Shown piece by piece: positions 1 through 2,048 of a stretch of 24,535 nt of DNA. Made by a program: the position numbers and the translations under genes. Each line of letters starts with the position of its first letter. Positions within the stretch are counted from its first letter, which is position 1. This DNA comes from a virus. The notes beneath the pieces were generated by a model, which searched no databases, was not told the DNA's origin, and saw only the letters and a list, made by a program, of their open reading frames with translations. The DNA is taken from IMG/VR virus record IMGVR_UViG_3300009149_000264, positions 1 through 24,535 of that record. The stretch is one strand, 5' to 3'.

Positions 1-104
1 AAAAAATATTAGTGATAATTTTAAAAAATTAAATCAATATACCTTTAACACCTTGTTGGAATGTATATTGATTTAATTTTCTAAAATTATCACTAATATT
101 TTTT
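1..104. repeat. 42-bp inverted repeat at window edge
   Basis: Positions 1-42 are the reverse complement of 63-104 with a single mismatch (a24 against c81), separated by a 20-nt loop. The left arm begins exactly at base 1. The right arm is ordinary tape-measure coding sequence, so the left arm is a fold-back copy of it. The likeliest explanation is a contig-end or chimeric-read artefact. A real terminal hairpin or inversion junction is possible. The reading frame of the tape-measure gene hits a stop inside the copied arm. Confidence 0.9.
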
Positions 105-814
105 AAAACTTTAGTTGTATTAACACCCATTCTTTCTGAGGTATCTACAACACCTTGAACATAATCTACTGTTGCACTAGCATTAAGTCCCATATATTCG
201 AATTGTGCACCAAGTTTAGTTGCTTCTTGAATACCAAGTCCAGTACCTTTACCAATACTTTCAATATCAATAACCATTTGTGATGTTAATACATTAGCAC
301 GACCAGTTTCATCGGCAAAACCTTGCATAATAGTTTGAATATCAGCAAGTGACCCACCCATTCGTAAAACTTCAGCCTTAGAACCCATAAAACTTTCACG
401 CATAGATGCTGCTTTTGCACCAGATAAACCAAGATTAAGATTTGTTGTTTTAATTAATTTATCTTGTTCTTGTAAATAATTCCAACCCATTTTTAAATGA
501 GCAACTAATTGTTTAGTTAAATCAATACTATTTTTTCTAAAAGTATTACCCTTTTCAAGTTTTTTATTAGTTTTTTCTAATTCAGCATTTAAATCACCTT
601 GTTGTTTACGAAGTTCTCCAAGTGTAATTGAATGGTCTTTACCGTCTTGATTTTGTTCTTTAGTTAATTGAGTGATTAGTTTTTGAATATCATAAATTTG
701 CTGAGTAATTATTGCATTATTTTTCTCAGCAGCACTAACACCATTAATAAGATTAATTTGTCTTTCGGTTTCTTCATTAGTCCTTTTTAATATATCTAAT
801 CTTGGGTCAGCCAT
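29..814 (-). CDS. Tail tape-measure protein, N-terminal part (truncated)
   Basis: The visible 261 residues look like the start of a phage tape-measure protein, which sets tail length and sits inside the tail tube. About 110 charged, heptad-like coiled-coil residues come first, then a Gly/Ala-rich segment typical of these proteins (residues about 125-240, including a GMGVNT-like stretch near SERMGVNTTKVL). Real tape measures are far longer. This frame ends only because it enters the inverted repeat at the window edge, so the last few residues (after FQQGVKG) are probably not genuine. It is the last gene of a minus-strand unit after the gp26-like gene and its -1-frame partner, the standard place for a tape measure. 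It has its own candidate late promoter at 831-840, 16 nt before the ATG. The family call rests on context and composition, not on a sharp motif. Confidence 0.7.
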   Translation of the reverse strand: MADPRLDILKRTNEETERQINLINGVSAAEKNNAIITQQIYDIQKLITQLTKEQNQDGKDHSITLGELRKQQGDLNAELEKTNKKLEKGNTFRKNSIDLTKQLVAHLKMGWNYLQEQDKLIKTTNLNLGLSGAKAASMRESFMGSKAEVLRMGGSLADIQTIMQGFADETGRANVLTSQMVIDIESIGKGTGLGIQEATKLGAQFEYMGLNASATVDYVQGVVDTSERMGVNTTKVLKNISDNFRKLNQYTFQQGVKGILI

Positions 815-843: not shown

Positions 844-870
844 AGACCGAGAAATATATTATCTCGGTCT
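844..870 (-). terminator. Rho-independent terminator between chaperone-like genes and tape measure
   Basis: A perfect 9-bp stem, AGACCGAGA (844-852) against TCTCGGTCT (862-870), closes a 9-nt A/T loop. On the minus strand it is followed by TTT before the promoter motif. The final codons and stop of the 58-codon ORF lie within the hairpin. The stem is symmetrical, but the T-run favours the minus strand. Confidence 0.7.
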
Positions 871-1035
871 AAAATTATTTTTATTTTCTGCTTTATCTCG
901 CTGTTTGTCTACCTCTTCAAATTCTTTTTCTAATAAATGCAAGAAGTGTCTTCTACGATAAATTGGTATATTTTCGATATAATGTGCCTGAAACTTAGCG
1001 TGTTTGGTCAATATATATATCTCTTCATCGACCAT
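859..1035 (-). CDS. 58-aa ORF in -1 frame; probable frameshift extension of gp26-like protein
   Basis: From ATG 1035 this encodes 58 residues, mostly charged and helical (MVDEEIYILT at the start, ending NNFRPR), stopping at TAA 861-859 inside the terminator hairpin. No family is recognised from sequence. Its frame is the -1 frame of the gp26-like gene and stays open back through the slippery heptamer at 1059-1065. A -1 shift would add eight linker residues (HLAGDYKK) and then the whole ORF to that protein. By position, directly before the tape measure, it matches the T part of the G/GT tail-assembly chaperones. Independent translation from its own ATG (18 nt past the upstream stop codon) is also possible. 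The open frame and position are seen; the chaperone role is inferred. Confidence 0.65.
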   Translation of the reverse strand: MVDEEIYILTKHAKFQAHYIENIPIYRRRHFLHLLEKEFEEVDKQRDKAENKNNFRPR

Positions 1036-1065
1036 TTTTTTATAGTCACCCGCTAAGTGTTTGGG
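994..1065 (-). promoter_or_regulatory. Candidate programmed -1 ribosomal frameshift site with nested stem structure
   Basis: The heptamer C-CCA-AAC (1065-1059, minus strand) fits X-XXY-YYZ in exact register with the gp26-like frame, two codons before its TAG stop and just after a run of nine T. In the mRNA an 8-bp perfect stem follows at once: ACUUAGCG (1058-1051) with CGCUAAGU (1000-993). It encloses a second 7-bp stem, GGUCGAU (1033-1027) with AUUGACC (1012-1006), with one G-U wobble. The outer stem starts with essentially no spacer, closer than usual, so partial melting would be needed. The shifted product would be about 396 residues instead of 331. Confidence 0.65.
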
Positions 1066-2048
1066 AAAAAAAAATCGACTCCCACAGATAATTGTGCTTT
1101 GAATTTATATCCATTCTTGGCAGTAAATTCATATTCCATATCAACATCAGGACTAACATCCAATATTTTTCTACGAATTGTTAAAGCATCAAGTGCTGGC
1201 ATTGCATCAACAAATTTACTAATATATGACCTATCATTTTTTTCATCAATACTAATAATATGTGATTTAAGTTTAAGTGTACTATAATCACTATATTCTT
1301 GTCCAAATGCTTCCATATGTGCTTCAGCTTGTTTTAATAATATAGTTTCTTCACCAGACGTTAATAATCTAAATTTAATGTTTTTCTTACGCATTGGGAT
1401 AAAAACATTAAAATTACCTTCATTATCAGGAGTTTCATTAACCTTTTTGTATCTTAATTTTAATAAATCGACAGTTGTTTTAAAAACAACATTAGTTCTT
1501 GGGTCAGGTACGTGAACCGTGTATTCAGGACCATAACTACTTGAACGTAAAAATAAAATAATCGCATTTCTATCACCAGTAAGTAAATCATTAACATTAA
1601 TACCTTTTGTTTTGATTTTTCTTTTTAATAAAATATCTAATACTGTATTATTTTCAATTAAAGATGGTGTTGTAAGAAGGTCTTCGTCAGTTGATGTCAT
1701 ATATTCAATAGCAACTTCCGAAATATTATTAGAATAATATAATCCTTTTGATGGTAATTTAATTAATTCATATGAAGTCATTAAATCAGGGTCAGTTTCT
1801 CTACTCATCGTTGCCTGATAATCTTCTTTATTAAAATTAGATGATGGAATATCAGTACCAACTGCTTTAGGAATATCATTACCCAATATTCCAGCATTAT
1901 TAAAATTATGTTCAGGTGGTTTTTCATCAAGAGGTAATGATGTTACTGATTCAGGACTTGGAAGAGTACCAGCTTCACGCATTTCTTTATATTTATTTAA
2001 TAAATCACCGATTGGTTCTTTTTTGTGTTGTTCTTGATTATTTTCCAT
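1053..2048 (-). CDS. T4 gp26-like baseplate/tail assembly protein
   Basis: The 331 residues comprise a polar, probably disordered N-terminus (about 1-85) and a conserved core. The core begins LPSKGLYY and carries a DLLTGDRNAIILFLRSSSYG stretch (around residues 155-175), the signature arrangement I associate with the T4 gp26-type baseplate hub assembly family. The C-terminal part (about 210-331) is mixed alpha/beta. T4 gp26 is shorter (about 208 residues), so the N-terminal extension is extra. It sits two genes upstream of the tape measure, as gp26 does in T4 (26, 51, ... 29). Its 3' end carries the candidate -1 frameshift signal, suggesting it also supplies the long and short forms of a tail-assembly chaperone. 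A candidate late promoter lies at 2077-2086. Stop is TAG. Family assignment is fairly good; the chaperone role is inferred. Confidence 0.7.
   Translation of the reverse strand: MENNQEQHKKEPIGDLLNKYKEMREAGTLPSPESVTSLPLDEKPPEHNFNNAGILGNDIPKAVGTDIPSSNFNKEDYQATMSRETDPDLMTSYELIKLPSKGLYYSNNISEVAIEYMTSTDEDLLTTPSLIENNTVLDILLKRKIKTKGINVNDLLTGDRNAIILFLRSSSYGPEYTVHVPDPRTNVVFKTTVDLLKLRYKKVNETPDNEGNFNVFIPMRKKNIKFRLLTSGEETILLKQAEAHMEAFGQEYSDYSTLKLKSHIISIDEKNDRSYISKFVDAMPALDALTIRRKILDVSPDVDMEYEFTAKNGYKFKAQLSVGVDFFFPNT

Follow-up and report, generated by a model that had tools for sequence, protein, structure and literature searches.

Long-tailed phages generally make their tail-assembly chaperones (TACs) in a short and a long form, G and GT, through a programmed frameshift (Xu, Hendrix and Duda, 2004; reviewed in PMC5009743), and the 2016 review lists T4 as the exception to G-T frameshifting (PMC5009743). 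For T4-like phages, papers citing a 2022 study report that gp26 was assigned as TAC-N and gp51 as TAC-NC, in a two-gene form in T4 (Vladimirov, Gautam and Davidson, 2022, cited in PMC10885494), and that T4-like TAC-N genes carry poly-T -1 sites (Vladimirov, Gautam and Davidson, 2022, Virology 566:9-15, cited in PMC12846349). The TAC locus of the Vandenendeviridae also uses a -1 frameshift, at which a T-rich motif, GTTTTT, is conserved (PMC12846349); the likeness seen to the locus described here lies in the shift and the motif. In 0305phi8-36, gp143 and gp144 form a paralogue pair in place of a frameshift, as gp26 and gp51 do in T4, and differ from the present locus both in this and in being other proteins (PMC2147016).

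Here we describe a locus from a virus record of 24.5 kb and 28% GC, the whole of which we call the window (Table 1). It resembles lambda G/GT in position, in a predicted -1 shift shortly before the first ORF ends and in its predicted short and long forms, whereas its proteins belong to a different family by sequence. The lambda slip site is G_GGA_AAG. The 2022 T4-like study is reported in its abstract to have found frameshifting kept in several T4-like groups, with T4 using genes 26 and 51. As far as the citing papers convey that study, the window shares with the T4-like TAC genes a gp26-family G, a probable gp51-type T, a poly-T -1 site and a place before the presumed tape measure; it differs from T4, where the two genes are separate, and represents another, uncultivated clade with a covarying stem in addition. 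The initial annotation of this DNA had proposed a tie of gp26 to the tail chaperones. That link is not new, the T4-like TAC genes having been assigned earlier according to these secondary accounts (PMC10885494, PMC12846349). The poly-T -1 sites are likewise already reported there, and what the window adds is the uncultivated clade and the covarying stimulator.

We put at roughly 90% the probability that this is the tail-assembly chaperone locus of a T4-like myophage, in which a -1 slip on U_UUU_UUC, helped by a two-stem hairpin, produces a G-T fusion. The majority of ribosomes would stop at the TAG (1055-1053) and release the short gp26-type protein (G, TAC-N). A minority would slip by -1 on U_UUU_UUC (1071-1065), aided by the hairpin that begins 6 nt further on, and so produce the long fusion of G and T (TAC-NC) with the junction VDFFF-PKHLAGDYKK, a predicted protein containing a peptide that spans VDFFFPKHLAGDYK. 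That the shift occurs, and how efficiently, we infer from sequence. By analogy with lambda, G and GT would cover the tape-measure protein and bring in tube subunits, a chaperone function suggested by the protein family, by the place of the genes and by what G and GT are known to do.

Table 1. Features of the putative chaperone locus, in window positions
Feature	Position	Strand	Support
G / TAC-N, gp26-family protein, 331 aa	1053..2048	-	PF12322 T4_baseplate E 9e-7; phrog_150 E 7e-7
0-frame TAG stop of gp26-family ORF	1053..1055	-	
T / TAC-C, -1 frame after shift (PKHLAGDYKK... to TAA)	859..1065	-	-1 ORF in 55/55 distinct junctions
58-codon ORF counted from internal ATG; likely no independent gene	859..1035	-	ATG absent in 6/55 homologues
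Presumed tape-measure gene start, broken near contig end	29..814	-	position
T_TTT_TTC, slippery heptamer and most likely site of the shift	1065..1071	-	53/55 distinct homologous junctions
Overlapping heptamer T_TTT_TTT	1068..1074	-	49/55 homologues
CCCAAAC, probably not the shift site	1059..1065	-	12/55 homologues; 0-nt spacer to stem
Outer stem, 5' arm	1051..1058	-	91% of cells paired; compensatory changes
Outer stem, 3' arm	993..1000	-	pairs with 1058-1051, 8 bp perfect
Inner stem, 5' arm	1027..1033	-	83% of cells paired; compensatory changes
Inner stem, 3' arm	1006..1012	-	pairs with 1033-1027, 7 bp including one G-U

Two scans of viral contigs returned 12 and 79 loci, which came to 55 distinct junctions once duplicates and truncated loci were removed. 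All 55 have the second ORF in the -1 frame and encode the same protein (42-82% amino acid identity for T in a chosen set of homologues), which supports the initial proposal that, ahead of the tape measure, a programmed -1 shift links a gp26-family protein with a small C-terminal domain. In the window no stop interrupts the -1 frame between a point 49 nt 5' of the 0-frame stop and the TAA at 861-859. The nine-T run at 1074-1066, the longest T-run of the window, yields both T_TTT_TTT and T_TTT_TTC in X_XXY_YYZ register, and at least one of these U heptamers is present in every one of the 55 junctions: homologues that have lost one (GAC TTT TTT TTC; GAT TTT TTT TCC or TCT) always retain the other. 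TTC makes up just 18% of the upstream Phe codons in the same homologous genes, so its fixation at the slip codon is not a matter of codon bias.

The fold computed for the window has an energy of -18.1 kcal/mol, better than shuffles (z -3.4; homologue mean z -2.2), and the 6-nt spacer between U_UUU_UUC and the outer stem fits the usual distance of about 5-9 nt for a programmed -1 signal. Unconstrained RNAalifold on 54 sequences did not choose the named stems, returning a different weak structure (-0.38 kcal/mol), after which we tested those stems directly for covariation. In the alignment of 54 sequences, pairing holds for 87% of cells across both stems. Double-change cells number 45 against 20 +/- 3.5 in shuffles, and the covariation score is 0.215 against 0.03-0.09 when the partners are slid, both with controls that remove relatedness incompletely. 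The double changes of the outer stem affect the third positions of -1-frame codons (CAC/CAT with AAG/AAA; GCG/GCA with CAC/CAT), and the stem is incomplete in more divergent homologues. The sole Rfam match, to HrrF, lay below threshold and was taken as chance.

The same T9 run offers another route to the fusion, since transcriptional slippage adding one U to some mRNAs would give the same product without a ribosomal shift. T-runs of such length are known transcriptional slippage sites, for example in Shigella mxiE, and the run is maintained at nine T in 47 of the 55 homologues and at eight in the other 8. However, several T4-like relatives carry T_TTT_TTC with six T only (AGTTTTTTCG, GATTTTTTCG), and six T in a row is too short for efficient transcriptional slippage; the covarying stems at a 6-nt spacer also fit a stimulator acting on the ribosome. 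We consider slippage by the polymerase unlikely, although it is, with independent translation of the small ORF, one of the two main rivals to survive.

The second of these, that the 58-codon ORF is a small protein in its own right starting at ATG 1035, is less likely still. Database records annotate the gp51-like ORF as separate, and the ATG is kept in 49 of the 55 homologues. Yet two of the six that lack it (L045 and L047) offer none of the codons ATG, GTG and TTG at that position, and in a sister group with a +1 arrangement (below) a Met occurs among the first 25 T residues in only 6 of 71 junctions among the matches listed. The segment between slip site and ATG itself evolves as -1-frame protein: of the single-base codon differences there, 74.5% are synonymous when read in the -1 frame, compared with 25.7% and 7.8% in the two remaining frames, indicating that the stretch is translated in the -1 frame. 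Together, -1-frame coding ahead of the ATG and the absence of the ATG from six homologues argue that T is translated as part of a fusion protein. The ribosomal G-T fusion would correct two mis-annotations, the 58-aa orphan ORF and the 'independent gp51', in many uncultivated T4-like phages.

The initial annotation placed the slip on CCCAAAC. Every element it listed is there, from the heptamer at 1065-1059, in correct register two codons before the TAG, to the open -1 frame and the stems; the T9 run directly 5' of CCCAAAC had gone unremarked. Of the features it named for comparison among homologues, the -1 frame is kept throughout and the stems covary, whereas CCCAAAC occurs in only 12 of the 55 homologues against 53 for U_UUU_UUC. 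At its position other homologues have CCCCAGC, CCCCGCA, CCCAAGC and others with the fusion frame unchanged, and its spacer to the outer stem is 0 nt rather than 6. We therefore regard CCCAAAC as a very improbable shift site, and the expected junction peptide changes with the slip on U_UUU_UUC, from VDFFFPN-HLAG to VDFFFPK-HLAG. This places the most likely shift site on U_UUU_UUC and provides a covariation-supported stimulator that is directly testable. A chance overlap in an AT-rich genome with nothing programmed, which the 94 in-frame X_XXY_YYZ heptamers among the 7497 codons of the window's ORFs might suggest, is refuted by the conservation of frame, U heptamer and protein in 55/55 homologues; at 28% GC a lone heptamer proves little, and the comparative evidence carries the case.

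G passes the curated PF12322 cut-off (29.2 bits against 24.5, residues 90-315). In BFVD, its AlphaFold model (pLDDT 74) finds as matches predicted structures of gp26-type proteins from other phages; the best PDB fold matches are chains B and A of the HK97 TAC 2ob9, at a non-significant E of 0.69 and a TM of 0.46 by target. A sequence search for a solved structure found none, and a scan of genome contigs that took the LR756508 protein as query turned up no relative in bacteria. Sampled loci of Kyanoviridae, KVP40-like phages, phiW-14, ZPAH1 and Ackermannviridae have a -1 ORF across the gp26 stop, with T_TTT_TTC or T_TTT_TTT at the corresponding place in 5 of 7 sampled T4-like relatives, and the products of these -1 ORFs match phrog_634, the gp51 family (E 2e-30 to 0.011). 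T4 gp51 itself matches PF12322 over its first 200 residues (E 4e-52) and phrog_634 over its last 100, making it a gp26 paralogue with a T domain attached. On this reading G is of gp26 type and GT probably of gp51 type.

The T domain of the window clade reaches gp51 through intermediates. Its profile matches that of the +1 group at 97% (hhalign), the two combined match a Kyanoviridae/KVP40-type set at 96%, and that set matches the gp51 C-terminus at 94%; the window T sequence alone gives a non-significant E of 0.21 against phrog_634, and the direct comparison of the window-clade profile with the gp51 C-terminus is weak. Window and relatives alike have two overlapping ORFs directly 5' of the tape measure, as G/GT-type chaperone loci do, with the tape measure assigned by position in the window clade. 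Annotated isolates have the order sheath-tube-gp26-small ORF-tape measure, with the tape measure annotated next to the locus in LIS04 and in Flavobacterium phage immuto, an example of the +1 type described below. Relatives have a single ORF of 818-851 aa in that place, and a family search with the window's own presumed tape-measure ORF gave no convincing match.

We also identified a large sister group with T in the +1 frame. Relatives of a protein of Microcystis phage Mel-JY01 (L015), taken from 80 of at least 600 stretches, and 20 from another query gave 76 distinct junctions. Among the matches listed, 71 of the 76 show a +1 T ORF immediately 3' of a site that reads TTT TTT TGG CCT in 59, TTC TTT TGG CCT in 10 and TTT TTT TAC CCT in 2, and three more listed junctions have CTT TTT TGG CCT with a +1 T ORF. 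Across the listed members (L117-L213), a near-invariant TTT TTT TGG CCT joins homologous G and T domains, and UUU_UGG_CCU resembles the +1 sites of RF2 and Ty1. A -1 call for two members (L156, L185) was rejected as an artefact of choosing the longest ORF; both have TTT TTT TGG CCT and a +1 T ORF. In two others (L206, L212) the T domain appears to form a separate ORF beyond the stop of G, where an internal ATG is present and no overlap is clear, possibly a third arrangement. GXN1, SP-15 and LIS04 (L017, L019, L021) have +1 T ORFs, unannotated or annotated from an internal start, at another conserved junction, in which NNN NCC CGA TT comes after TTC TTT or TTT TTT.

Since the +1 group and the window clade have homologous T domains, a single chaperone family apparently combines -1, +1 and two-gene solutions. 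Several other T4-like groups besides the window clade also have the -1 arrangement at U_UUU_UUC. We lean slightly towards a flip of shift direction within the gp26/gp51 family, between -1 at U_UUU_UUC and +1 at UUU_UGG_CCU, with separate genes in T4 and perhaps in L206/L212. We found no description of the +1 group in the literature, where the main 2022 study of T4-like TACs was represented by the papers that cite it. With this group included, the family is well suited to studying how a programmed shift can switch direction or give way to two genes.

Further observations concern the surroundings of the locus. The contig end (window 1-120) repeats, in inverted orientation, sequence lying about 60-100 bases further in; this is probably an assembly artefact, and it cuts the presumed tape-measure ORF at base 29. 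The motif GTATTTATA occurs five times in the window (6912+, 14582+, 22611+, 19989- and 840-) against about two expected; all five copies lie 23-27 nt 5' of a gene start, and it also precedes the tape-measure gene in relatives. It is a candidate for a late promoter in this group of phages. Between the T stop and the tape-measure gene, the minus strand carries a terminator-like hairpin at 845-869 (GACCGAGA...TCTCGGTC followed by TTTT), whose pairing relatives keep through compensating changes.
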